Virus record (IMG/VR): IMGVR_UViG_3300035698_007935
Span: 1 to 24,860 of that record
Direction: 5' to 3' (one strand)
From: a virus
DNA: 24,860 nt
The notes beneath the pieces are model-generated. The model had not been told where the DNA came from. It was given only the letters and a program-made list of their open reading frames with translations, and searched no databases. The first letter of the stretch is position 1. Every line of letters begins with the position of its first letter. The translations under genes and the position numbers were made by a program. This document shows, piece by piece, positions 2 to 24,860 of this stretch.

Positions 2-64
2 AGATTTGCAGATCAGCAAAATGCCGAGAGAATGCAAAGACCCATTAAGGGGACAGGATGGTAA
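2..64 (+). CDS. 3' end of an upstream gene (partial)
   Basis: The frame is open from the left edge and reads RFADQQNAERMQRPIKGTGW before TAA at 62-64. It overlaps the terminase start by 7 bases, in the same style as other overlaps in this operon. Only about 20 residues are visible, so no function can be given. In many phages the gene before the large terminase is the small terminase or another packaging gene, but nothing in this fragment shows that. The call rests on an open frame and tight spacing only. Confidence 0.4.
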   Translation, partial: RFADQQNAERMQRPIKGTGW

Positions 65-3000
65 ACGTTCAAATTCCGGCTCATTTGGTACATTATTTTA
101 ATAATAGTAGAATGTGTCGTAAATGTATTTTAAAATACCATGACCTTTACACCAAGGGAAAGACAAGTGAACCATTCCCCGTTAAGTGTCATGGCGATAG
201 AAGAGTCCCGCCTCTGAACATGGATAATGAAAACGTAAGAATGCTACATACATTAAACGATGTTGTAAACTGGGCAGAGATAGAATTGTCAGATCCGGGA
301 AATACTAATAAACCATTTATACTCAGACCATATCAAGCAGATATGATAAGCTGTTCTGCTGTTAGAAAAGTTGAAAGATGGGGAAGGCGACTGGGGAAAA
401 CAATCGGTGCTGAGACAGCTATTCTACATCGCATGTTTATGAAAAAGACGAGAGTAATGGTAATAGTACCATATAGTAGGGTAGCAAGCCAATTCTTTCT
501 TTCTCTCAATTCGCTAATAGATGCGTCCAGCATACTTTTTGCATCTGTCAAGTCACGAACAAAGAATCCGCATGTAGTAGAATTTTTAAACGGCTCACGC
601 ATAGAGGCGTTTACAATAAACTCTGCACAAGGAACTACAGCTGACAAAGTTAGAGGACAGCCTGCTGATGTAATCTATATTGATGAAATGTCTTTCATTC
701 CAGACGCAGACTTTACGCCTGTTCGAGCAGTGTTAATGGATAATCTAGATACAGAACTCTGGGCAACATCAACACCATCTGGATTGAAGAATGAATACTA
801 TCAAATTTGCGAAGACAAAACAAGAGGATATGTTGAAACACATCTATCTGCTATGAACCATCCTAATTGGGCTGCTATGGAGAAGATGATTAGGGCTGAG
901 TATAAAAACAATAGCGTTGGATGGGAACATGAGATACTTGCTGAATGGGGTAATGTAGAAGGCGGAGTTTATTCTGTAAGAGCATTAGAAGCATCCGAAC
1001 AAAACTATACATATCCATGCGCAAGAAAACCATCTTATCCACAAAAGGTTGGTAGTGGCGGTGGATCTATATATGCTGTTGGGGTAGATTGGAATGGGGC
1101 ACCTACAGGTGACCACATTGTTGTTGTTGAATATGATACAGAAACATTTAAATTCAAAATTGTTGATAAGTATATAGTAAACGATATTGAATATACACAA
1201 TTAAAAGCTGTCCAGAAGATTATCAATATATGTGAGATGTGGCGTGCTGATATATTGTGGGTCGACAGCGGATTCGGCTGCATTGGAAAAGAAACATTAA
1301 TCCAAACACCAAATGGATGCTGCGAAATACAAGACATTAAAATAGGAGACAAGGTATTAACTCAAACTGGCGAATTTAAGAAAGTTATAGATAAACAGAA
1401 TGTTGGCAGTAAAAATTCTTATATAATAAACCCTGCTAAATGTCTACCAATTACCACTAGTCATTGTCATCCATTTTATGTTATAGATTTGCCAGATCGC
1501 TTTAATTCAGATGTCGATGAGGCACAAATTAAAGCAGTAACTGCCGAAGAACTAGATAAAGATAGGCACTTCATATCCATCCCAAGACAGAAAGTAAAAT
1601 ATAAGAACTCAAAGATACTAGATCTTACCACTATAATGGACCACGATTTTCGTTATGACGACGAACATATATGGATGAAAAATGGACAATCACCAAACTC
1701 TGATGTGTCATGTCCTATCTTGGCATCATTTGCCAAATGTGGGACAGCAACAATTTGCAGAATACGAAAACGTATTAAGCACAATATAGATTTAACGGAA
1801 TACCAAGAAGGAATCAAAGACTTACTTGACAATAATTTCAGTGATTGGCAAAGTCGTCCACCAAAGAAATATAATAGATACATAGACATTATGTCAAATG
1901 ATTTTCTATATATATTAGGTTGGTATTTATCAGAAGGATCTGTACGCAAAAGCGTGATGTCAATTAGCCAGACGGACGGTAACAGAACAGAAGAATTTAA
2001 TGAACTTATTGACATCATGAAATCTTTGTTTGGGGATAGTGTCAATGTTCGACATAGAAATGGAAATGGGAACAGAAAGGATTTCAGAGAAATTTATATA
2101 TGTTCATATCCTATTACCAGATTGTTTGCGGTGTTAGGTGGAAAAGGATCGCATCACAAAAGCATACACCCAATGTTATCGAATTGTAGACCGCAAAGAT
2201 TACTACAAGGAATACTCCTTGGTGATGGACATATTAAAAACCACGAGGTAACATTGAGTTTGACAAGCCACTCTCTTGTTATGCAAGTAAGACAGATATT
2301 CATAGACCATGGAATTCTGCCAAGTTTGTACAAAGTGAGGAAACATGGTGAGAACCATGCTGATCAGTTAAAAATATTACTATCAGGGAATATAGAAGAA
2401 GTCAATATTATCAACAAAGTTATCGGTATGGATTTAGAAAACGACAAACGTGTATGTAGAAGTAAATATATTACTACTGATAATTACATATTTGTTCCAG
2501 TAAATACTATCGAACCAGTTGGCAGTACAGATGACCTATATGATATATCTGTGGAAGATGTACACTCATTTTGTGGAAACGGAATGTTACTACACAATAG
2601 TGTCCAGATAGAAACACTTAAACGTTATATATCAGAAAATCCAACAAGTAATATGACTAAAAAGATAGTTGGAGTTAATATGGGTGGAAACGAAGAAGTG
2701 AGAGACCCATGGACAGGACAGAAGATTAAAAAGAAAACAAAGAGTTTAATAGTTAATATCACAGCAGAAAAAGTAGCTACAAATAATTGTATCTTTCCAG
2801 TAAGTGAAGACTTAAAAGACGGACTTGTTGATCAGTTAAGAAACTACCGTATCAAAAGATGGTCTGTTAATGGAGACGCTATATATGAAGACACATATGA
2901 CCACACGCTAACAGCGTGGCAGGTTGCTATTTATGGGATTATGAAAACCTATTCTAATCTTAGTTTGATAATTGGAAATGATGCTATGGATGTGGTAAAG

Positions 3001-3255
3001 TCTCCAGTTAGGATTAATGGCAACGTAATAGAAATAAACGATACAGGTTCTATTAATGCTAGCCCAGAATTCTTTAGAGATATTCTGTGTAATAAAAAGA
3101 GTGATTTTGAACGTTCCGCTTTTAATCGCAAAAGTTCTTTAACAAAGAGATCGGATAGAGATTCATTTGCAAGAAGTGGAGCACCAGTGAACAGAGAATA
3201 TGCAAGAGGCGGAGCACCTATAAAGGTTAGAAGATCAGGAGGGCGTTCCTTTTGA
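58..3255 (+). CDS. terL: Terminase large subunit, precursor with an in-frame intein
   Basis: This is the packaging motor: an ATPase that drives DNA through the portal and a nuclease that cuts the concatemer. The precursor is 1065 residues; removing the intein (residues 408-847) leaves 625, a normal to slightly long TerL. Visible motifs: a possible N-terminal zinc cluster (C20, C23, C44, H45); adenine-motif-like PYQ near 91-93; Walker A GRRLGKT 109-115; Walker B VIYIDE 205-210; coupling motif ATSTPS 236-241. The RNase H-like nuclease follows, with acidic residues D344 (GVDWN), D403 (WVDSG) and D948 of the precursor (DHTLTA; D508 after splicing). The C-terminus is basic and rich in Arg/Gly, with a short repeat (FARSGAP then YARGGAP). 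The ATG at 58 has AAGGGGA at 47-53 just upstream. The gene overlaps the next by 4 bases. The family call is firm; the packaging type is not shown. Confidence 0.95.
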   Translation: MVNVQIPAHLVHYFNNSRMCRKCILKYHDLYTKGKTSEPFPVKCHGDRRVPPLNMDNENVRMLHTLNDVVNWAEIELSDPGNTNKPFILRPYQADMISCSAVRKVERWGRRLGKTIGAETAILHRMFMKKTRVMVIVPYSRVASQFFLSLNSLIDASSILFASVKSRTKNPHVVEFLNGSRIEAFTINSAQGTTADKVRGQPADVIYIDEMSFIPDADFTPVRAVLMDNLDTELWATSTPSGLKNEYYQICEDKTRGYVETHLSAMNHPNWAAMEKMIRAEYKNNSVGWEHEILAEWGNVEGGVYSVRALEASEQNYTYPCARKPSYPQKVGSGGGSIYAVGVDWNGAPTGDHIVVVEYDTETFKFKIVDKYIVNDIEYTQLKAVQKIINICEMWRADILWVDSGFGCIGKETLIQTPNGCCEIQDIKIGDKVLTQTGEFKKVIDKQNVGSKNSYIINPAKCLPITTSHCHPFYVIDLPDRFNSDVDEAQIKAVTAEELDKDRHFISIPRQKVKYKNSKILDLTTIMDHDFRYDDEHIWMKNGQSPNSDVSCPILASFAKCGTATICRIRKRIKHNIDLTEYQEGIKDLLDNNFSDWQSRPPKKYNRYIDIMSNDFLYILGWYLSEGSVRKSVMSISQTDGNRTEEFNELIDIMKSLFGDSVNVRHRNGNGNRKDFREIYICSYPITRLFAVLGGKGSHHKSIHPMLSNCRPQRLLQGILLGDGHIKNHEVTLSLTSHSLVMQVRQIFIDHGILPSLYKVRKHGENHADQLKILLSGNIEEVNIINKVIGMDLENDKRVCRSKYITTDNYIFVPVNTIEPVGSTDDLYDISVEDVHSFCGNGMLLHNSVQIETLKRYISENPTSNMTKKIVGVNMGGNEEVRDPWTGQKIKKKTKSLIVNITAEKVATNNCIFPVSEDLKDGLVDQLRNYRIKRWSVNGDAIYEDTYDHTLTAWQVAIYGIMKTYSNLSLIIGNDAMDVVKSPVRINGNVIEINDTGSINASPEFFRDILCNKKSDFERSAFNRKSSLTKRSDRDSFARSGAPVNREYARGGAPIKVRRSGGRSF
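1279..2598 (+). mobile_element. Intein in TerL with LAGLIDADG homing endonuclease (440 aa)
   Basis: This in-frame insertion should excise as protein and join DSGFG to SVQIETL. The splicing blocks are complete: Cys1 in CIGKETLIQTPNG with IGDKVLTQTG behind it (block A); TTSHCHPFYV near 59-68 (block B, with H62 or H64 as the histidine); YDISVEDVHSF near 421-431 (block F); and a C-terminal His439-Asn440, followed by Ser as the +1 extein residue. The middle holds two dodecapeptide motifs, LGWYLSEG 213-220 and ILLGDG 312-317. Each keeps an acidic residue before its final Gly (E219, D316), so the endonuclease may be active. The basic stretch around intein residues 146-168 could be an added DNA-binding segment. 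It sits four residues after catalytic D403 of TerL, a conserved site of the kind inteins favour. The boundaries follow the Cys1/His-Asn/Ser rule and are firm. Confidence 0.95.
3237..3254 (+). promoter_or_regulatory. Ribosome site deciding a TTG start
   Basis: AGGAGGG at 3237-3243 stands 8 bases before TTG at 3252-3254, which itself overlaps the terL stop (TTGA). This strong site supports TTG as the true start of the next gene and suggests translational coupling with terL. Confidence 0.75.
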
Positions 3256-5843
3256 GTAAAATACGCAACAAACCAAATATAGAATATAGAGGTAGACGTA
3301 CTGTTAACCCAGAAGGCATTAGTCCTGGGCAAAAGACTGGGGATGCGTATAGACGCAATGCTACTGATCCGCTGTATAGTAATTTAAAGACATCTAAACA
3401 CGATGACAAAACTACAGATGAACAGGAAGCAGATGAAACATTTATAAATTTAGCAGGTGTATTGTCGAAGGTTAAACAGATTAAAAATCTGTCAGACAAA
3501 CTTAATAAGGCTCCATTTATTCCTGTTGATGCTGGAGCATCTGAAGTAAGACAAGCAGTCCTTCGTAGGGACAGAGAAAACGCACCTGGCGGTGATAAAA
3601 TATATTTTGAGTTATTCAAGAGAGCCGTAGATAAGACACTACATAAATATGATTTTGTAACTTTTGATTTTCTTGACAATGCAAAGCATGAACCGTTTTC
3701 TGATACAAAGTATTGGAACATGAATAAGATACGTCAGCAACTACAAGATGATATACGCGACATACTTGGGTCTGTATCTAGTAGCATTTCAACATCTGGC
3801 GTTGCAGAAGGTATTCGAGACAATCTATTTAATATAGATGGCGATGATAAATGGGCATGGTTAAGAAAGCTGCTGCTGTATTCAGCTCCATTGATATATC
3901 TACTGTTTGATTATAAATTAAAGGGACCAATATCTTCTATAGATGATGCTGGGAGATCAGCAGGGAAACTACCACCAGCTACAGAGATGCCTACTATTAT
4001 TATACAAATAATAGTCGGGATTATTATCTATATGCTATTAAATGCGATAACAAAAGAAGACATGAAGAAAGCTTTGTCTTCTATAGGGCTTCAAAAGAAT
4101 CTTAATGATAAAGCACATGGAAGCATAGATATAGACGGACTTGTAGATAACGCTGCGTCTATAATAAATGGTGAAACTGTAAATATTGCAGGACTTGGTG
4201 AACACAATCTAAATACATTACCACTTGGATTCAGTAAAGAGTTCTTAAAAGCCGCAATAGTTTATGTAGGACAAGCGGACTGGGATATTATAAGAGACTT
4301 TAGTGTTAACTATTTAATCAACAATATAGGCGAGAAGAAATACTATCCATGGAATATGTATCTAGACAGCTCAATAGGAGATGTCGAACTTGAGAAAGCA
4401 ATGGAAGACGCGACAACATATTCTCCATTCTTTAAAGACCACGCAGACAGAAACAATGTAGTTAACAACAGAAGTATTCCTCCCCTTTCATTTGAAGGTG
4501 CCATGTCTACTATTGATGCTTTCGGCAACGAAATACTTAGAGCACCCGATCCAGAAGATGTAAACTTTAATTTCTCAGTAAGCAATCCAGAGAACGCTAT
4601 TGAAGGTGCGGCTAATGATTTGATTAGTGGGCTTGGCGAGGCAACTACACTTGCCTCAAATGTGCAAGAAACAAATGCTTTCGCTCCACTACGTAGTTTT
4701 CTTGATAGTAATCAATCTGTAGATGATGCTAGAGCATGGCTCAAAACAAACCCAGGCACCATTAAACTTGGTGATAAACAAAATTGGTATAGAGAACTTG
4801 CGTGGACATGGAACAGTATTGTTGAATCGTTAGTTGCTAATTTAGTTTGGCAAGATTGGTATAAAGAATTCTTATGTTGTTTTGTAAGGTACGCAATGTA
4901 TTTAGATGGCGACATGCTATCTGTCTTAAAGAAGCTATTAAAATGGGCATCTGTAAATATGACAGTAGATATTGGCAGTGTTCTCAAAAAGTTATATGCT
5001 AAATACTGGGTCTCACTTATGGATGAGTTTAAGAAGGACTTACATAAACTGCTTGATTCAAAATGGCAGTCTGTTTTAAAAAAAGATGTTTATCCGTTAG
5101 CAGACCAAAGTCTAGATCATGAATCAAACAAATATTGTTTTCTTTGGAGAATGATGATAGAGGCTGTGTTACAATCATTACTAGATTTTAAAGCAAAGAT
5201 AGACTTGATGATAGATGATCTATTTGCAAAACTAACACTATCAAGTGAATTGTTTGATATGAAGATAAAGCTTCATATCGGCAATCAGTCACTAAAAATG
5301 TTTGCAGAACTTCTTGATATAGTTGTAAACTTCGTAGAAGAATGTGGTGTTCCACTAGACGACTCATCAATTGGAGATATAGAAACAGCCGTGAATAATG
5401 GTCTTACAAATGAATTCGGTACAACGATAGGCATAAGCAATACCAGCGTAAGATATCCTACTGTAGCAACAGCTACTACGATACTAAATATTCCGAATAC
5501 AGTAGATGACAACGGGACAGAAGTACCGATAACAGATATAGAAAAAGAAAAACGTCCACATAATATTATAAAAGTTTATGGACATATCATAGATTTGCCA
5601 GTAGAATATGATAAAGCATCACCACTAAATTCATGGTGGTTTGGAGAAGCTGTTGAATATGATTATGGTTTAGTCGTCATGCCCCTGTCATCTTATCTTG
5701 ACGAAACAGGAAAAGAAGATATAGCCGAAGAACAGAAAAGGCGATGTAGAGATCTTATGGCACCAGAAGAGATGATAAGCTTTATGAGTCAATTTCCAGC
5801 AGAATTTACAAACACTTATGTTAGGAATAAAAATGCGCTTTAA
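3252..5843 (+). CDS. Large unrecognised protein between terminase and portal, probably structural
   Basis: I do not recognise this 863-residue protein. The first 60 residues are polar and basic and look disordered. Two hydrophobic segments follow, near residues 207-222 (starting LLLYSAPLIYLLF) and 248-266 (TIIIQIIVGIIIYMLL), which could cross or lie in a membrane. The region from about 510 to 700 is strongly helical in pattern, with many Trp, Lys and Leu residues. The C-terminal third is rich in Asp, Thr and Val and may be beta-structured. It starts at TTG with a strong ribosome site and overlaps the portal start by 11 bases. Position alone suggests a virion or portal-associated protein, perhaps an internal or ejected one given the hydrophobic pair. 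That is inference. The coding call is firm and the function open. Confidence 0.9.
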   Translation: MSKIRNKPNIEYRGRRTVNPEGISPGQKTGDAYRRNATDPLYSNLKTSKHDDKTTDEQEADETFINLAGVLSKVKQIKNLSDKLNKAPFIPVDAGASEVRQAVLRRDRENAPGGDKIYFELFKRAVDKTLHKYDFVTFDFLDNAKHEPFSDTKYWNMNKIRQQLQDDIRDILGSVSSSISTSGVAEGIRDNLFNIDGDDKWAWLRKLLLYSAPLIYLLFDYKLKGPISSIDDAGRSAGKLPPATEMPTIIIQIIVGIIIYMLLNAITKEDMKKALSSIGLQKNLNDKAHGSIDIDGLVDNAASIINGETVNIAGLGEHNLNTLPLGFSKEFLKAAIVYVGQADWDIIRDFSVNYLINNIGEKKYYPWNMYLDSSIGDVELEKAMEDATTYSPFFKDHADRNNVVNNRSIPPLSFEGAMSTIDAFGNEILRAPDPEDVNFNFSVSNPENAIEGAANDLISGLGEATTLASNVQETNAFAPLRSFLDSNQSVDDARAWLKTNPGTIKLGDKQNWYRELAWTWNSIVESLVANLVWQDWYKEFLCCFVRYAMYLDGDMLSVLKKLLKWASVNMTVDIGSVLKKLYAKYWVSLMDEFKKDLHKLLDSKWQSVLKKDVYPLADQSLDHESNKYCFLWRMMIEAVLQSLLDFKAKIDLMIDDLFAKLTLSSELFDMKIKLHIGNQSLKMFAELLDIVVNFVEECGVPLDDSSIGDIETAVNNGLTNEFGTTIGISNTSVRYPTVATATTILNIPNTVDDNGTEVPITDIEKEKRPHNIIKVYGHIIDLPVEYDKASPLNSWWFGEAVEYDYGLVVMPLSSYLDETGKEDIAEEQKRRCRDLMAPEEMISFMSQFPAEFTNTYVRNKNAL

Positions 5844-7320
5844 ACCAATGATTGACAGGGTTAGCCCAACATCTATAGTTCCAGCCAGTGCAAGCGTTGC
5901 CATACCATTGGCATTAGCAAAGAGAAAGAATGTACAACCGCCAATTAATGTTGGTTCTGCATCTATCTGGTCGCCTAGTAGTGGAAGAGGAAACTTCGAG
6001 GAAATAGAATACAATTTAGAAGAGATAAGCAAAGCAGAAGAAACAGAGATGTATGTAACCAAGTCTTTCTCCGATCATGTTCAACTTCTCACTAGAGAAG
6101 GATTTAGCATAAAGAGCCAAGATAGTAAGATAGAAACATATATTAACATGAGGATCAAAGAGATTGAAGTGTTAACAGGAAAGTCTTTTCCACGTTTAAT
6201 CAAAAGTGTAGCTCGTGATTTAGTAAGATATTCAAATGCATATATAGTAAAGTCTAGAGTTAAAGCTCCTTGCAGTGGAAATAGATACAAACTTAATGGC
6301 GTTGACCTAGATCCAATTGTGGGACTGTTTTCTCTCAGTCCATTGGATGTTTCGGTATCTCGTAATAGTAAGGGTGTTGTAACTGGATATAAATCATCAC
6401 CAAAGTATGGTACAAAAACTAAGTATTTTAAATACTACGATGTTATACACCTAACATATAATAAGAAGACAAATGAAGCCTATGGCTTCCCGTGGGTCAT
6501 TCCAACATTAGATGATATTCGTATATTAAGAAGATTTGAAGAACACGTAGATATTCTCGGCGGAACATATGCTCAGCCATTTCTTCACTGGAAAATAGGT
6601 ACAGATGACCAGCCAATGCTTATGGATGACAACTCTGGGAGAGCAGAGGTAGAACTTGTTAGGTCTCTTGTAAATCAAATGGAGAAAGAAGGGATGGCCA
6701 TAACCAGCCATCGCCATAATATTGAAGCAATCGACACTTCAAATTCTGGAGTAAAGCTAGAACCATATCTTAATTACTTTAAAGATAGAGTTGTTGCTGG
6801 GTTAGGACTATCTGGTATATCATTAGGACAGGGAGGGTCAGCTAATAAAGCTACAGCCACCCAATTGATACAAGTTGCTATAGATAGATGTAAAAGTATT
6901 CAAGATGATATAACTTTACAATTAAATAACACATTGTTATTTGAATTGTTGCTAGATGGTGGTCGCCCGCTTACTCTCGCGGGTCAACCATATATTGAAT
7001 TCACAGAGATAGACGAAGAAGCACAGAGAGCACGAGAGAATCATGCGCTGTCAATGTTCCAAGGTGGGTTATACACACACAATGAAGCTCGTAAGGAAAT
7101 GAATAGAAACGACTTTACAGATGAAGATAAAGCCAATGATTTCATTGGCAACTATTCTACTCGCAAACTAGAGCTAGAAGGTCAAATGTCGAAGAAGTAT
7201 GGAGCACAGCTGACAGTTGGTGAGGGTGGGTCTGGAAGTCCTAAGTCAGTTAAGCAAGCAAGTCAACCAGCCAATCAATCTGGCACAAAGACAAAGACCA
7301 AGGTGAAGAAAAACGATTGA
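5833..7320 (+). CDS. Portal protein
   Basis: This is the dodecameric ring at the capsid vertex through which TerL pumps DNA and to which the neck attaches. The product is 495 residues from the ATG at 5833, a usual portal size. Portal-like features in order: a helical N-terminal region, VRYSNAYIVKSR, SPLDVSVSRNSKGVVTGYK, YYDVIHLTY followed by EAYGFPWVIPTLDDIRILR, and a long helical C-terminal half ending in a Lys/Gln/Thr-rich tail. An ATG at 5818 in the same frame would add five residues, but AGGA at 5823-5826 is correctly spaced only for 5833, so the later start is preferred. The gene overlaps the preceding stop. Synteny (after terL, before protease and capsid) agrees with the motifs. Confidence 0.88.
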   Translation: MRFKPMIDRVSPTSIVPASASVAIPLALAKRKNVQPPINVGSASIWSPSSGRGNFEEIEYNLEEISKAEETEMYVTKSFSDHVQLLTREGFSIKSQDSKIETYINMRIKEIEVLTGKSFPRLIKSVARDLVRYSNAYIVKSRVKAPCSGNRYKLNGVDLDPIVGLFSLSPLDVSVSRNSKGVVTGYKSSPKYGTKTKYFKYYDVIHLTYNKKTNEAYGFPWVIPTLDDIRILRRFEEHVDILGGTYAQPFLHWKIGTDDQPMLMDDNSGRAEVELVRSLVNQMEKEGMAITSHRHNIEAIDTSNSGVKLEPYLNYFKDRVVAGLGLSGISLGQGGSANKATATQLIQVAIDRCKSIQDDITLQLNNTLLFELLLDGGRPLTLAGQPYIEFTEIDEEAQRARENHALSMFQGGLYTHNEARKEMNRNDFTDEDKANDFIGNYSTRKLELEGQMSKKYGAQLTVGEGGSGSPKSVKQASQPANQSGTKTKTKVKKND

Positions 7321-14552: not shown

Positions 14553-16004
14553 ATGACTGACGAATACCCAAACGTACCAAAAACGTTTCTAGAATTTAAG
14601 GATGGCGGACTCACTGTTGCGCCTCCTGCGCCAGGAAAAAAGATAACATTAATTGCTGTTACTAACTCTTCGTCGCTGACTGCAAACGAGCCTGTTGAAA
14701 CAACTAGTGTAACAACAGCATTAACTCTCAGCTATCATGATGATGGTACACACTCCGAAATGACAAGAGCTGTTTCTGAAGCGTATGCGATGGGAGCTAA
14801 AAGAGTAGAGCTAATGAAAATCTGTCCAGAGGACGCAAATGGAGTTGCAACTGCATCTGGTGTTATATACACCGCAAGTGGTTCTTACTACATTCCTTCT
14901 GATGATATTGATGTAGACGATAGATGGGATCTGCTAAGTGTAGCTTATGCAAGTCTCTTAGATCATGATGTGGACATAGTCGTTCCGACCGAGGCTTATA
15001 TTGATAATCCTGCGTCTGCATCTGGATCATATACTACACGCGATTTTGGATTCCAGCTTGCTCAGTTTTGCTTTGAAAGCACGAGTGTTAACAACACAGC
15101 ACATGGAGTTATCGCTGCTCGTAATGAATTGCAAGTAGCCGATGCCGAATATGGTGAGAGTGTAGATGTTGCACATGGAACACCTACATTAGCTCAAGTC
15201 TCCAGGTATGCCACCGATTGTGGTACATATGCCTTCTGTTCATACTATGATGGCACAGGAGAAGCAGGAGTAGATGCTAGGCATAGACCAACTGCTTATC
15301 ACTATTTCAAGAATTCATCTGATTCAACATTACCCGCTCTCATAGGGGCTGCTGAACTAGATGCAAACGGTTTCCCAATTGACCAAGGAGCTTATATAGG
15401 AGTGGTCGGTGGACTTGTGAAGCATTCGAACTTTGCTGCTAAGACAGCGTTCCCAGAGTACGGATATTACAATGGTAATCTTGCAGTTACTTATGGGGCT
15501 ATGCAACTGAATCTACTCTCGGAAGATTCACCAACAAACAAAGGACTCACTGGAATTACAATTGCTAGAAAATATAGCATGAGTCAATTGAACACTCTTG
15601 CAGGAGCAAGATTTGTTGTTGCACAGGTTAAGAGTAGAAGAGGAGTTGTTGTTTGTAATGCGATGACAGGTGCATGGAACGTAAGTGATTACTATCGCTC
15701 AGATTATGTGAGGCAAACTACTGTAAACACAACACATGAAGTAGCTGACATAATTCGTGACGAAAGCGATCCATATCTTGGTCGTCCGGCTAATGGCGAT
15801 ATTGTAGCTGCTATACAGGCAAAATTTGATAATGCAATAGGAGACCTGATCGAAAGAGGAGCATTATTGAGTGGGACTGCGATACTTACACTGACACCAG
15901 AGAATAGAATTCTTGGTGAAGGCACAGTAGTTATCTCCCTGACTGTCCCTGGTGAGCTGAGTAAAATAAATGGTTCTATTGGGCTTAATAGAGCAAACGT
16001 TTAA
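14553..16004 (+). CDS. Contractile tail sheath protein
   Basis: The product is 483 residues. It forms the contractile outer tail cylinder that drives the tube through the cell envelope. The sequence has the sheath layout: an N-terminal strand region, then a Rossmann-like part with helices and DVDIVVPTEAYI, a central domain with GVIAARNELQ, and a conserved C-terminal domain with FVVAQVKSRRGVVVCNA, DPYLGRPANGD, and a final beta strand region (VVISLTVPGELSKINGSI) that in sheaths links neighbouring subunits. AGGAGAA stands about 7 bases before ATG. The tube gene follows 15 bases later, the usual pairing. The call is firm by sequence pattern and order. Confidence 0.88.
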   Translation: MTDEYPNVPKTFLEFKDGGLTVAPPAPGKKITLIAVTNSSSLTANEPVETTSVTTALTLSYHDDGTHSEMTRAVSEAYAMGAKRVELMKICPEDANGVATASGVIYTASGSYYIPSDDIDVDDRWDLLSVAYASLLDHDVDIVVPTEAYIDNPASASGSYTTRDFGFQLAQFCFESTSVNNTAHGVIAARNELQVADAEYGESVDVAHGTPTLAQVSRYATDCGTYAFCSYYDGTGEAGVDARHRPTAYHYFKNSSDSTLPALIGAAELDANGFPIDQGAYIGVVGGLVKHSNFAAKTAFPEYGYYNGNLAVTYGAMQLNLLSEDSPTNKGLTGITIARKYSMSQLNTLAGARFVVAQVKSRRGVVVCNAMTGAWNVSDYYRSDYVRQTTVNTTHEVADIIRDESDPYLGRPANGDIVAAIQAKFDNAIGDLIERGALLSGTAILTLTPENRILGEGTVVISLTVPGELSKINGSIGLNRANV

Positions 16005-18993: not shown

Positions 18994-19647
18994 ATGACTA
19001 CACCTGCATGGCATGTTTGTAATCATCAATTCATAGACAATGAAATGCTACTTCAGATTGTTGAAGCGAAGAAATACAATCCCAACATATACAGAGTAAC
19101 ATTAGACGGTCCATGGTTTTATGGATCAGAACACAGAGACAGCCTGTCGGTTGTCTTTAGACCATTGACTAGAGATGAAAATGAAACATTATCTAATCTT
19201 CGTTTCTACAATCTATCATTTAATAGAGACTTTGTAATATATGGGTGTATATTCTATCCATCAGAAGAAGAATGGAATGAGGCACCAGCAGGATTAATAG
19301 AATCTATTTATGATATAATAGAAGGGGTTTCTGCGTGGAACTCAGAAGAATCATTAGTCTCACTACATCAAGCACAAAGAAATAGTATTGAGTCGGAAGA
19401 CGGACAGCAGATGAGCACTATGCTAGATATAGTTATCTCCACAGGGCTTGGAATGGAGATAGATAGGATAAGACATTTAGATGCATATGAAACATTGAAA
19501 ATGTTGGCTATTACAGAGAATAGGTTTGGGAAGAAGATAGACTTGAGGTCTAAAGAGACAATAGACAGAGAAGAAGAACAGAGAGAACGGGCATTTAGAG
19601 AAAAGTTTGGCGATGGCAATACAAGAAGAAGAACGCGGCGGACTTAG
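18994..19647 (+). CDS. Probable tail assembly chaperone, copy 2
   Basis: The product is 217 residues. It has VVFRPLTRDENETLSNL near 53-69, then FVIYGCIFYPSEEEW and PAGLIESIYDIIEG, matching the corresponding segments of the preceding protein (RSVARIEW, ATRCVLFP, GGLPESLYDQI). A helical C-terminal extension (LDAYETLKMLAITENRFGKK) ends in a highly charged Arg/Glu tail, like the T extension of longer chaperone forms. The usual lambda-style G/GT pair is made by frameshift; here two separate genes seem to do it. It overlaps the next gene by 35 bases. AAGG lies upstream of ATG within the end of the preceding gene. Confidence 0.6.
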   Translation: MTTPAWHVCNHQFIDNEMLLQIVEAKKYNPNIYRVTLDGPWFYGSEHRDSLSVVFRPLTRDENETLSNLRFYNLSFNRDFVIYGCIFYPSEEEWNEAPAGLIESIYDIIEGVSAWNSEESLVSLHQAQRNSIESEDGQQMSTMLDIVISTGLGMEIDRIRHLDAYETLKMLAITENRFGKKIDLRSKETIDREEEQRERAFREKFGDGNTRRRTRRT

Positions 19648-22600
19648 ATCATTCTTTGGATACGGGCTTAGTATAACGGGAGCTTTCCTTGGTATTCGAG
19701 CTGCCGCAAAGAACATAACACCACTACGGAAGATAGCGGTAGAAGCCGCTTCTAACGCTAGTGATCTTGCTGTACATATTCGAAGAAAAGCAGCTTTATA
19801 TGCAGAAGAGAATGCGAGTAATGCATTGGTCAAGCTCTTGCGTGGGGAAAAACTGCAAGACAAGGGAATGCAACGCCTTAGAACAAGCCTGCTGTCTGAA
19901 CTTGGTGATGTTGATAAAATCCAATATAGTAAAGTTGCCTCATCCGATCTAGCAGAGAGGCTAAAGCCATTTGCCAAAGTTGATAGTATGGCTTTTAGTG
20001 AATATAGGGCACTAACTGCTGGCGACATAGTAAATAGAGCACAGAAAGTTGGTGATGACATATATGGCATCACAGCAAATAGATATGTCACCGGTAAAGA
20101 CGTTTCAAATCTCCGCAAAGCTATAAAGCAAGGCATAATTAGTGAAAACTTTATGCTAGATAGAAACTTGCTTGTTAGACAAACAGGTAGTGGATTCGCC
20201 ATACGTGATGCACGTTCATTAAATATCAGAAGGACACTTAATGCCGCAGTTAGAAAAGGGCAGGAGTTCCAACTCTATGGTGCGTCTCCATTTGATGCAC
20301 TGGTTCCCAGGCTATGGGGGCAGAAACATATAACGGGAAGGCTTAGCTCTCGCATCCCAGTACAAATTGCTGGGCGTGGTTTAGTTGAAATAGGTGGAGA
20401 CTATGGTTATCAGATAGGTGAAAGTGTTTACCGTGTCTCAAAAAACAATTGGGAATATTTAGGGAAGACAAAGGGTAAGATATATAAGAGCGGGATGCTT
20501 GCGAAGCATCGTGCTGCTCAATCTTTTGTAAGAGATAAAGGCGGCAATGTAATAGGGCTTGCTGGCAAGACAATAGGTAAGGATATAAAAAGCCCACTTA
20601 CATATGCTGAAAAACTTAAACTTTATCCAGAAAGATACAAAGGGTTTGGAGGAAAGATAAGGTCATATCTTGAAAGAGGTACTGGCTTTAAAGGACTTGG
20701 GATTGGTGAAGGGTATGATATTGGAACCCAATATGCCCAGAGACCAAGTTTGGTAAGTACTGTTTATAACTCCCTTGAAAGATTTGTTAGTGGCAAAACC
20801 GCTATTAATGTAAAAACAGGAAAGCAGGGATGGGGAGCTAAAGAAGGGCATTCATTCCTAGATAGAATATTGGGGCTTGCAAAGGTAGATACAGTCGGAC
20901 GTAGAGGAGAAAAGGTTACATGGGCTACCAAGAGTCAAATAAGCAAAATGGATCCAGCAAAAGAAGTCCAGAAGCTTGCTGACCTAGCTCCCTACCAAAC
21001 AAGAATAGCTACTGACACTGTGTCAATGACATCTGAGCAGGCACTCGGAGCTATGGGTCGTAAGACACTTACAACTCCATTGCGCGTATTTGAATATGCT
21101 ACTGGACTTGGTGTTAAACCAGGCACAGCAGGTCAGATGGCATGGAGGATGCTTGCCAAAGGAGTTATCCCTATATGGATGGGTGCAGAAGCACTTAAAT
21201 ATGTTGACTACCTCACAGAGCAAGCAACTGGTTTCAGTCCTTTTAAGGGATTGACTTTCGGTTATGCCGGAGCAATGACTGCTCGTCAAGCCGCCTTAAA
21301 TGTAACTGGCTATTCTCATGTATCTGAGAAGATGAATGAAGCCACTGGTGGATTAACAAATTCTTATCTTGGTACTGCAATGAAAAGCGCAGGTGTATTT
21401 GGCATGGGCATAGCTATTGGCAGACACTCAAAAGCTCTTAGTAGAATAGCTCCTCTTGCTGGACTTGCAGCTGCCGCAGCAATATTTACAACTACACCAA
21501 GTGAATCCGCTGTAGATACATGGCAAACATACATGGGTAAGAAAAGTGTTGCAGTCCGTAAAGGACGTTTCTGGATGATCGGCAGCCAGCCATATGAAGG
21601 TGGCGAAGTCATGTATCACAGGAAGCATATGACTGCTCAGATACTTGATGATGAGATATATAATAAATATGGTGGGAAAGAAGACTATTGGAAACATATC
21701 TCCTTATTACCCACGCCAAGTAATCTTATGGGTGCAAGAAAAGTAATTGATCCATATTCTTGGGAGAAAAAACACTATTATGATCGTCCCTATCCCGTTT
21801 CCGCAGGGATGTTTTCCTCTGTTCCTATTGTTGGTCCAGGACTTAACATAACAGCAGGACGAATTCTAAAACCCCGTAGGTTAATGCATGGAGAAGAACT
21901 CAATACATGGCTACATAGCCAACCAGAATATGCAGGAGAACCTGGCTTAGAAGGTATAAGCCAAGCACTTGGATTCCAGACATCACAACACGGGCGCGCT
22001 ATTCCTCGATATGGATTAGCTCAAGAAGCAGGTGAAGTCATGAGGGGAGCAACAGACTTTATAGGACTACCTGGTTTTGTTATCAATGCTGCTAAAGAAC
22101 AAGTAACTGGCAACCAAGAATGGTTCCATAGTGGACCAATATGGGAAACACCTGATTATAACATATCACAGGCGAAGACATTCTTTGAAGCTCAACTGGG
22201 TGGACTAGCCGGGCACTGTTTCGTGGGAGAAACACCAATCTCAACTATAAACGGGCAGAAGAACATAGAGGACATGCAAGTAGGCGACAAAGTAATAAGT
22301 ATTAATGGGGAAGAAAAAAGTGTAGTAAGAATATTTAAACGGAGTTCGTCAGATCTCCGTGAACTAAAAATATCATGTATATCATCAGAAATAGTTGGAA
22401 CAAGCAACCATAAGATACCTATATTTAGACCAGACGTTTGTAAAGCAGGTGGATCGAGACGATGTGTTCCGGGAAGAAGGAAATACTGTAGTAAATGTAG
22501 GAAGCAAAGAAGTATAGAATTACACGACACAGAAATGAAGGACATAAAAAGTGGTGATTTTGTTTGTGTGCCTATCATAAAACCAAAATACATATATCCC

Positions 22601-24860
22601 ACTATAGATTTATCAAATGCATCAGATAAAACATTTACAGATGACTGGATATATAGCAATGCGTCAACAGAGTTTGCAGAATGTATGGAAATGATAGAAA
22701 AAGACATTAACATAACAAGAAAAGAATTGCGTGGATTAGGATTCCGTGACGCAACTGCAAAAGAGGCACTATATGGACGAAGACACAACGCTCTCCCATG
22801 CAGAGAACAAAGATATGTTCAAATTGATGCTGATATTGCCTATGTATTAGGTTGGTATGCAGCGGAAGGCTCTATAGAAGAGAGTGGTAGGGTGTCATTT
22901 GGTCTGCATGCGAAAGAAATACCTTATGCAAAAAAGATACAAAGTATACTTGCGGATAAGTTTAATGCATATTCTCAGATAAGAATAGAAAACAACACAC
23001 TTAGATTGCGATCTCAGTGTCTTACATTCTGTAGACTAGCAAGTTTAATGATAGGGAAAGGGTCCCACGACAAATATATCAACTATAAGATAAAGTCACT
23101 TCCACATGATGCACTAAAAGCATTTTTTAAGGCCATAGTTCTTGGAGATGGATGGTCGAATATCGAAAAGAAAACATCTGGGTATACCTCTGTTTCCCCT
23201 GAATTATGCAGAGATGTTCTCGATGTATCGTTGTCGCTTGGCATAAAGGGTTATATTATATTAGATTACAAAGAAATATCAAAAGGTAATTATCCCCAAG
23301 GAACACCAAGACTAGATGCTGCGAGATCACATGTGGTGTGGTCTGCAAATTCAACAGCAATGATACATAACATATTATATGATGATATGGTAGAGGAACC
23401 TATGCATTCACGTTCGTTTATACACAACTGTATGCTATACGTACGGGTTATATCCAACATAGAGATAGAAAGTGAAGCCACAATAGTTTACGACATGGAG
23501 ATAGAAGACCTACATTACTATACAGCTGGTGGTATAATAGTCCACAATAGTGAAGCGGTCAGAAGACTATACGGTGGATTACGCCCTGGTCATGAAGCAA
23601 ACTATGTAAATCCTATTCTGAACCAAGCACCATCCTATCTACCTGGAAGTAGATCTGACTATGGCGATAATTCGTTTATAGATTTCCATACTGGTGACCC
23701 CTTGGCAACTGTGCCTTATGCAGGAGAAAGAACAAGAGATGGGACTGCTTTCGAGAAATACAGATCATTACAAGATATAGCTCCGTTTTCTGCGGCAGCA
23801 AGAAACTATAGATCTATCATAGAAAAACAGGCTATGGCAGGCTCTCTTTCTGATGAACAAGCAAGGACTTTTGAAGATATACAAGGTAGAGAAGATGCTT
23901 ATAATGTATTAAGCGGAGTAGCTGGATATGGATCAGAAGGTGTTACATCAAAACTTCCTATTCATATTCCGTGGGTAAGCACCAAGTTTCTTGGTGCTAA
24001 AGATGTAGAGTCCCACTATAGAGACATGGTGCTTTATGGGTCTAGCTTCCAAGATTGGAAACATCCATACAGTCAAATGTTAGACCCACACCTCTCAAGC
24101 CTATCCTCACGCGACCCAGCGAACGCAATGCTTGGCGGGGGTGGTTTAGCCTTTCTAGGGAGAACTCCTCTCACAGCGGCTGCAATTGGTGCAGGTGGGG
24201 CTGCTTACGGTGGTCTTGCATCTCTAACTGGTCCACACAAGAGTTCTAAAGAACAAGACAGAGAATTTAATGAAGAATACTTTGATAATCTTAAATTTAT
24301 TAAGTATAGAAGATTAGAGAAAAGAGCTGAAGAATTAGGTAGAGATGATATTGTTAGTAAGTTAAGAAAGCTTCAGAACAAAACTATGGCTGGATTAGAT
24401 TATTCTGGAGATGGTAAGCAATTCTTAATAGCTGCCCAAGCAGCTTTACCACGTACAGATAGAGATTATCTTGGCGCGATAGCTAATTCTAATATGGATA
24501 TATCTGAGCTTCCATCTTATATGCGTCCTATGGTTGAGAAAATTAGGTCAGGGACAGCTGGTGGTAGAAGATCAAGATCACAAGTTGACAGACATGTTGC
24601 AAATGAAGTTATGGAACAAGGTGGAGTCCCGGGTGGTAAGTGGACTGGGTGGAACCCAGAAGTAAGTATGGAGTCTGCTAAATTAGTTAAAGTGGCTGAC
24701 CAAGCCGCTAATATGCATGACTATGACGTATACCAACCAGCGTTTGAGGAAAAGTATGAATCTAGCCCTGCTATACAAAGTTCAAATATTTCTTATTTAG
24801 ATCTTCGCAAATTAGGAAGAGACGTGTATAATACAGGTGTAGATGCAAAGCGATTAGGAA
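19613..24860 (+). CDS. Probable tape-measure protein with intein (3' end beyond window)
   Basis: The frame is open from ATG 19613 to the right edge: 1749 codons, of which 444 belong to an intein. That leaves at least 1305 extein residues. It is mostly helical, with hydrophobic Gly/Ala-rich stretches at residues 11-34, 509-530, 592-628 (APLAGLAAAAAIF) and, after the intein, 1505-1541 (LTAAAIGAGGAAYGGLASL). Such segments occur in tape measures, which set tail length and can help DNA enter the cell. Its place right after two chaperone-like genes supports this. Against it, long coiled coils are not obvious, and parts near 1325-1380 (YVNPILNQAPSYLPG, IDFHTGDPLATVPYAGER) look like a folded domain I do not recognise. 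The ribosome site is weak; TTG 19607 is the only other near start. Confidence 0.6.
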   Translation, partial: MAIQEEERGGLRSFFGYGLSITGAFLGIRAAAKNITPLRKIAVEAASNASDLAVHIRRKAALYAEENASNALVKLLRGEKLQDKGMQRLRTSLLSELGDVDKIQYSKVASSDLAERLKPFAKVDSMAFSEYRALTAGDIVNRAQKVGDDIYGITANRYVTGKDVSNLRKAIKQGIISENFMLDRNLLVRQTGSGFAIRDARSLNIRRTLNAAVRKGQEFQLYGASPFDALVPRLWGQKHITGRLSSRIPVQIAGRGLVEIGGDYGYQIGESVYRVSKNNWEYLGKTKGKIYKSGMLAKHRAAQSFVRDKGGNVIGLAGKTIGKDIKSPLTYAEKLKLYPERYKGFGGKIRSYLERGTGFKGLGIGEGYDIGTQYAQRPSLVSTVYNSLERFVSGKTAINVKTGKQGWGAKEGHSFLDRILGLAKVDTVGRRGEKVTWATKSQISKMDPAKEVQKLADLAPYQTRIATDTVSMTSEQALGAMGRKTLTTPLRVFEYATGLGVKPGTAGQMAWRMLAKGVIPIWMGAEALKYVDYLTEQATGFSPFKGLTFGYAGAMTARQAALNVTGYSHVSEKMNEATGGLTNSYLGTAMKSAGVFGMGIAIGRHSKALSRIAPLAGLAAAAAIFTTTPSESAVDTWQTYMGKKSVAVRKGRFWMIGSQPYEGGEVMYHRKHMTAQILDDEIYNKYGGKEDYWKHISLLPTPSNLMGARKVIDPYSWEKKHYYDRPYPVSAGMFSSVPIVGPGLNITAGRILKPRRLMHGEELNTWLHSQPEYAGEPGLEGISQALGFQTSQHGRAIPRYGLAQEAGEVMRGATDFIGLPGFVINAAKEQVTGNQEWFHSGPIWETPDYNISQAKTFFEAQLGGLAGHCFVGETPISTINGQKNIEDMQVGDKVISINGEEKSVVRIFKRSSSDLRELKISCISSEIVGTSNHKIPIFRPDVCKAGGSRRCVPGRRKYCSKCRKQRSIELHDTEMKDIKSGDFVCVPIIKPKYIYPTIDLSNASDKTFTDDWIYSNASTEFAECMEMIEKDINITRKELRGLGFRDATAKEALYGRRHNALPCREQRYVQIDADIAYVLGWYAAEGSIEESGRVSFGLHAKEIPYAKKIQSILADKFNAYSQIRIENNTLRLRSQCLTFCRLASLMIGKGSHDKYINYKIKSLPHDALKAFFKAIVLGDGWSNIEKKTSGYTSVSPELCRDVLDVSLSLGIKGYIILDYKEISKGNYPQGTPRLDAARSHVVWSANSTAMIHNILYDDMVEEPMHSRSFIHNCMLYVRVISNIEIESEATIVYDMEIEDLHYYTAGGIIVHNSEAVRRLYGGLRPGHEANYVNPILNQAPSYLPGSRSDYGDNSFIDFHTGDPLATVPYAGERTRDGTAFEKYRSLQDIAPFSAAARNYRSIIEKQAMAGSLSDEQARTFEDIQGREDAYNVLSGVAGYGSEGVTSKLPIHIPWVSTKFLGAKDVESHYRDMVLYGSSFQDWKHPYSQMLDPHLSSLSSRDPANAMLGGGGLAFLGRTPLTAAAIGAGGAAYGGLASLTGPHKSSKEQDREFNEEYFDNLKFIKYRRLEKRAEELGRDDIVSKLRKLQNKTMAGLDYSGDGKQFLIAAQAALPRTDRDYLGAIANSNMDISELPSYMRPMVEKIRSGTAGGRRSRSQVDRHVANEVMEQGGVPGGKWTGWNPEVSMESAKLVKVADQAANMHDYDVYQPAFEEKYESSPAIQSSNISYLDLRKLGRDVYNTGVDAKRLG
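22217..23548 (+). mobile_element. Intein with LAGLIDADG endonuclease and four-Cys cluster (444 aa)
   Basis: This insertion spans residues 869-1312 of the host protein. It starts at Cys1 (CFVGETPISTINGQ with VGDKVISING), has block B GTSNH near 61-65, block F VYDMEIEDLHYY near 424-435, and ends with His443-Asn444 followed by Ser. The exteins join as GGLAGH to SEAVRRLYGG. The endonuclease motifs are VLGWYAAEG 210-218 and IVLGDG 307-312, both with their acidic residue (E217, D311), and GKGSHDKYI lies between them. Unlike the TerL intein it has C75, C83, C91 and C94 in a very basic segment (CX7CX7CX2C), which looks like a zinc-binding DNA-contact module. All splicing residues are present, so splicing is expected. 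Boundaries are firm. Confidence 0.93.

Follow-up and report, generated by a model that had tools for sequence, protein, structure and literature searches.

A probable homing intein at a near-invariant motif of a gp145-like tail-module protein, in a family that inteins have invaded repeatedly

Inteins are usually said to live at the active sites of enzymes of DNA metabolism. The stretch of DNA analysed here (the window), a linear virus record of 24,860 bases that is an incomplete metagenomic fragment, holds one in a large gene of a phage tail module, first read as encoding a probable tape-measure protein. The questions that this locus raises are which protein has been invaded, and why at this point. 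Our explanation, in which we have high confidence, is that a homing intein has entered a gp145-type virion protein of a contractile-tailed phage resembling 0305phi8-36, at a motif that hardly varies in the family. The insert is of class-1 type and full length, and its LAGLIDADG homing endonuclease appears intact.

The intein occupies 22217–23548 on the plus strand (444 aa), exactly where it was originally placed; translated, it opens with Cys1, closes with His-Asn and stays in frame with ...QLGGLAGH on one side and SEAVRRLYG... on the other. Although the ORF list starts the host ORF at a TTG at 19607, we place the start at the ATG at 19613, giving an N-extein of 19613–22216 and a C-extein, with Ser at +1, of 23549–24860, both on the plus strand and both aligned with homologues; the ORF is still open where the contig cuts it at the 3' end. 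All splicing blocks and two LAGLIDADG motifs are found on the same strand. Block A supplies Cys1 (CFVGETPIS, 22217–22243), which falls within a nine-member intein alignment (A7), and block B the TxxH motif (TSNHK, 22400–22414; TSNH forms intein residues 62–65), of which T62 and H65 are kept in intein b of contig L160. The first LAGLIDADG motif (YVLGWYAAEG, 22841–22870) carries the acidic residue E217 and the second (FFKAIVLGDGW, 23123–23155) D311, which is invariant in A7, while blocks F and G (23486–23548) end in the penultimate His and Asn444. Cys1 in block A, TxxH in block B and HN/Ser in block G are the features of a class 1 intein. In Pfam, Intein_splicing (PF14890; 38.1 bits, cut-off 35.8), LAGLIDADG_3 (PF14528; 38.2 bits, cut-off 22.5) and Hint_2 (29.0 bits, cut-off 28.4) are all matched above threshold. 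The NCBIfam model for the C-terminal region of inteins is likewise matched, at 16.3 bits against a cut-off of 15.6, and the intein parts of the NCBIfam RNR and PolII models match as well. A profile of this intein and eight others of the family retrieves the intein endonuclease PI-PkoII, whose structure is solved (2cw7), with an E of 2.9e-22. The full motif set, the Pfam scores above cut-off and the profile match to PI-PkoII together confirm the intein. An AlphaFold model of it from a two-row alignment reached a pLDDT of 41 and was set aside. A chance ORF was ruled out by the profile scores and by an intein at the identical junction in L160 (E 1e-58). Between block B and the endonuclease lies a four-cysteine cluster (C..C..C..C, 22439–22498, plus strand), a putative zinc-binding module, all four residues of which are also present in the L160 same-site intein; a cluster resembling it is seen in the inteins of another site of the family (site C, below).

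Annotated relatives of the host protein are Moorella phage MTATph1 CDS0026, Bacillus phage KLEB27-3 gp031/gp033 and Acinetobacter phage ME3_35. ME3_35 is annotated as homologous to YP_001429636 of phage 0305phi8-36 and ME3_37, the hub, to YP_001429638; consecutive numbering makes YP_001429636 orf145, and the identity of the host as gp145 is inferred from this numbering together with gene order. Relatives keep the arrangement of sheath, tube, tube and two small genes followed by the gp145-like gene, and both homology and synteny with 0305phi8-36 gp145 (sheath, tubes, chaperone-position genes, gp145-like gene) were found. The 0305phi8-36 genome (218,948 bases) corresponds by homology to IMGVR_UViG_641201006 (L016). 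The host is therefore probably the orthologue of Bacillus phage 0305phi8-36 gp145 and not a tape measure, as the original prediction had supposed; the tape measure of that phage was published as orf146, the next gene downstream (PMC2147016). Alignment-based scans of viral contigs recovered relatives, while a scan with the C-extein alone gave none and PHROGs held no family for the protein. Presence of gp145-type proteins in the virion is indicated by the virion and structural annotations of the ME3 and KLEB27-3 records. The tail module of MTATph1 also contains an annotated transposase (L003, 21632–23119).

The most likely role of such a protein, we infer, is that of an ejected or structural tail protein. 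A plausible alternative, toward which we lean slightly less than away, is that it is specifically an ejected virion protein acting on nucleic acid, and hence belongs to the usual target class of inteins. In many gp145 homologues a PD-(D/E)XK domain of 180–240 aa is inserted after RLPG.GYE and before ILADVAP (alignment A4 matches 4ic1 at E 2.5e-4, and PF12705 is above cut-off in L045), others have a weak SNase-like stretch, the adjacent gene is RNA-polymerase-subunit-like in some relatives, and a relative in BFVD bears the label of large polyvalent protein. Against this, homologue alignments show both insertions to be absent from the window copy, the SNase scores are below cut-off, and nothing in the PDB matches the conserved core (best E 0.86). 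A search of the window host for a catalytic domain in Pfam, PHROGs and NCBIfam yielded intein matches only; the host was originally held to be structural rather than an enzyme, and this copy gives no sign of an enzyme, though many homologues carry the inserted nuclease domain. The PD-(D/E)XK insertion, which is Cas4-like, occupies one fixed position in about 15 loci (L016 8229–8957 and equivalents). In four loci (L095, L107, L129 and L080) the gp145-like gene consists of two overlapping ORFs upstream of the block of intein sites, which could reflect gene fission or a frameshift.

The gene at the orf146 position adjoins the host gene on its 3' side, past the end of the window contig; examples are L032 14810–16969 and L004 22783–24942. 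A pattern match finds a D.DGD motif in it in 25 of 83 loci, RNA_pol_Rpb1_2 (PF00623) matches three of 12 members (best E 2.4e-4, below the curated cut-off in the member shown), and the 12-member subset matches phiKZ055 at E 0.01. These signatures are suggestive, not proof, that the gene may encode a virion RNA polymerase subunit. This RNA-polymerase-like signature leaves the published tape-measure assignment open and calls it into question for the 0305phi8-36 lineage; the signature is beta'-like in several relatives and makes the assignment of orf146 shaky.

It is accordingly conceivable, if unlikely, that the host really is the tape measure and that the published orf146 assignment is wrong. 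The host gene follows the chaperone-position genes, the usual place of a tape measure (the next gene does so too, at one remove), and the beta'-like gene at the orf146 position of several relatives may not be a tape measure at all. However, the published assignment lies one gene downstream. Moreover, the gp145 family retains near-invariant motifs across very distant phages, whereas tape measures diverge fast (PMC2147016), and many homologues have inserted nuclease domains. AlphaFold gives a confident model for a homologue, mostly helical and with many helices (pLDDT 77.7, pTM 0.74); Foldseek returned nothing significant for it against the PDB and only four significant matches in a viral library, none labelled tape measure. 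A literature search for tail lengths of ME3, KLEB27-3 and MTATph1 found none; 0305phi8-36 is the sole phage considered here with a published length–tail correlation, which is for orf146. With the tape-measure assignment of this lineage in question, the worry that an unspliced intein would spoil tail length lacks support without being refuted.

Taking the host as gp145-like, the insertion point can be examined across its family. At the junction GGLAGH/SEAVRR (site B) the motif GG..G./[S/T]E..RR is near-invariant among 97 non-redundant intein-free representatives: one Gly, the Glu and the first Arg are present in all 97, the second Arg in 96 and another Gly in 82, and the +1 residue is Ser in 51 and Thr in 29. 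Indeed, that the intein sits at a conserved motif, one of two possibilities first raised for it, is borne out by these homologues, which show no break at the junction. L160 (IMGVR_UViG_3300035158_000183) has a gp145-like ORF, at 5223, with three full-size inteins, one of which is at the exact junction of the window, is 31% identical over its full length and is found at E 1e-58. The closest relative of L160, L087, lacks all three; over 1386 aa its protein matches that of spliced L160 at 67% identity, and its DNA presents a clean empty site, about 80% identical to L160 around it. A wider search for the lineage of the window intein gave only L160 at site B, the remaining matches being weak and in unrelated hosts. 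The nearest homologues of the window host are about 30–40% identical in their best blocks, and among the homologues found there was no near-identical empty allele of the window phage. It is very improbable that the mature protein keeps the insert as a Hint domain that has degenerated or does not splice: no catalytic residue is missing, the endonuclease has both its acids, and homologues free of the intein read uninterrupted across the junction. An assembly chimera, conceivable in a metagenomic fragment, can be practically dismissed given the exact in-frame junctions and the related intein at the identical motif of an independent contig.

The gp145 family has been invaded at other places as well. 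An HMM of family inteins identified 20 inteins in 13 of 132 non-redundant gp145-family ORFs; among 432 further non-redundant ORFs of at least 300 aa from the same loci it identified none. These loci are mainly tail region, so that gp145 is here compared with its neighbours and not with the whole genome. This HMM was built from seven family inteins and is biased, yet it finds the terminase intein of the window (E 1.6e-37); its only other match in those loci is an intron-borne LAGLIDADG ORF in L018. Site A (RKGRWWE.G[RK]/S) is occupied in L160, L115, L196, L203, L212 and L243, and site A2, five residues beyond it, in L243. Site B is occupied in the window and L160, with an L243 intein one residue upstream in the sequence motif; site C (LPG.DW.GW/SP.VD) in L160, L098, L100 and L236; and site E (RLPG.GY/SALHPE) in L203 and L236. 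Sites D, F and G are represented by L149, L243 and L135, and L228 holds an intein at a ninth site whose N-junction was not located. The ORF at 3662 of L243 (IMGVR_UViG_3300014911_000022) contains four inteins, two of them only five residues apart, and three of the four are mini-inteins of 144–156 aa without an endonuclease; a 151-aa mini-intein in L212 is placed within clade A. The eight mapped sites lie at conservation percentiles of 0.72–0.97 (mean 0.876; P 3e-5 against uniform placement), as scored in ten-column windows and with the adjacent sites A and A2 not independent.

Introns also interrupt these genes. In L018 and L019 the gp145-like gene comes in two pieces, separated by a group I intron that bears a LAGLIDADG ORF, scoring 39.7 and 27.7 bits in Rfam (E 2.8e-8 and 1.2e-4; curated cut-off 50). 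In KLEB27-3, gp032 lies between two gp145-like gene halves and a group I match reaches 19.6 bits (E 0.028), so the gene is probably split by a group I intron there too. The intron-like interruptions lie at 6782–7947 in L018, with the LAGLIDADG ORF, and at 15092–16190 in L004, with an HNH-like ORF (KLEB27-3 gp032).

The window contains a second intein, of 440 aa, in its terminase large subunit gene (58–3255, plus strand; Terminase_6N 45.6 bits, phrog_2 91.5 bits). It occupies 1279–2598 on the plus strand, with junctions WVDSGFG/C...HN/SVQIETL, is a LAGLIDADG intein and is 24% identical to the site-B intein. The terminase of BtI1, a relative of 0305phi8-36, has an intein too (PMC2147016). Between terminase and portal lies an 863-aa ORF (3252–5843) with no Pfam or PHROG match.

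In a tree, the family inteins group mainly by site and not by phage, the inteins of one phage being scattered: clades A, C and E have support of 1.0, 0.999 and 0.991, and the site-B pair 0.956. The four L243 inteins are the exception: none joins the clade of its site, a pattern consistent with independent invasions. The site-C inteins of L098 and L100 are 95.8% identical in DNA while their exteins are 76% identical in protein; identity in the flanks is 70–85% in the nearest 150 bases and, further out, 74% over 450 bases and 54% over 300, in an ungapped comparison in which an indel may lower the 54% figure. This contrast between intein and flanking DNA shows recent homing for site C. Horizontal movement is further supported by the disagreement in rank between intein and extein identities: intein A is 65.6% identical between L160 and L203, with exteins at 50%, but 47% identical between L160 and L196, with exteins at 64%. 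For the window's site B recent homing is not established in this way, as the identities of window and L160 are alike for intein (33%) and extein (28%) and descent and homing cannot be told apart by them.

The data have led us to propose a model in which the whole precursor would be translated first and the intein would then excise itself, through an N-S shift at Cys1, transfer to Ser+1 and cyclisation of Asn444, with ligation of the exteins at GGLAGH-SEAVRR. The endonuclease would be expected to cut the empty site in a co-infecting phage, into which the intein would be copied by repair. What would make the gp145-like gene a favoured target is its conservation throughout the lineage, together with the fact that an intein in it is lost only by precise deletion; the host protein is presumed essential.

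Such an element would be an ordinary homing intein of known kind. The gp145 family as a hotspot appears new, no report of inteins in it having been found in the literature searched, which took in few subscription journals. The other possibility first raised, that inteins hit structural genes more frequently than supposed, stands for this one family, with its 20 inteins at eight mapped sites and a ninth. Inteins have entered conserved motifs of this virion protein, for which no enzymatic core is recognised, on at least eight occasions, whereas the large neighbouring ORFs of the same loci have none. We moderately favour the interpretation that intein targeting follows the sequence conservation of a lineage's core genes and not DNA metabolism as such, or else that the gp145 core acts on nucleic acid in a way not yet recognised, next to a virion RNA polymerase, and that this family, with up to four inteins per protein, ranks among the more heavily invaded proteins known. 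The family thus offers a natural comparison of two target rules, DNA-site conservation and enzyme function, and adds about 20 new inteins, among them three natural mini-inteins that share one protein; the invaded sites point to gp145 motifs that must matter for the phage.

PI-PkoII (2cw7) and the archaeal RNR/PolII inteins likewise combine Hint splicing blocks with two LAGLIDADG motifs; the window intein differs from them in its host, a phage tail-module protein, and in its extra four-cysteine cluster. Virion structural hosts have precedent in the six portal-protein inteins of mycobacteriophages (PMC5050341) and the minor head protein intein of a cryoconite phage (PMC7468147), but these are other proteins with one site or few, whereas the gp145 family has eight mapped sites. 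Haloarchaeal MCM, with four intein sites (PMC10643990), and mycobacteriophage TerL, with seven (PMC5050341), resemble gp145 in that one gene has several conserved sites, several inteins occur together and inteins group by site; MCM and TerL are, however, ATPases of DNA metabolism or packaging, while no enzyme fold is recognised in the core of gp145. The tape-measure gene of ICP1, which harbours an intron-borne HNH endonuclease (PMC10448857), shares with the window a mobile endonuclease within a tail gene, although the ICP1 element is an RNA intron, not an intein, and its host a true tape measure. Closest to the window are gp145 of 0305phi8-36 (L016/L235) and ME3_35, orthologous hosts that share its site motif as well as its gene order; both are free of the intein, and 0305phi8-36 has the PD-(D/E)XK insertion instead.
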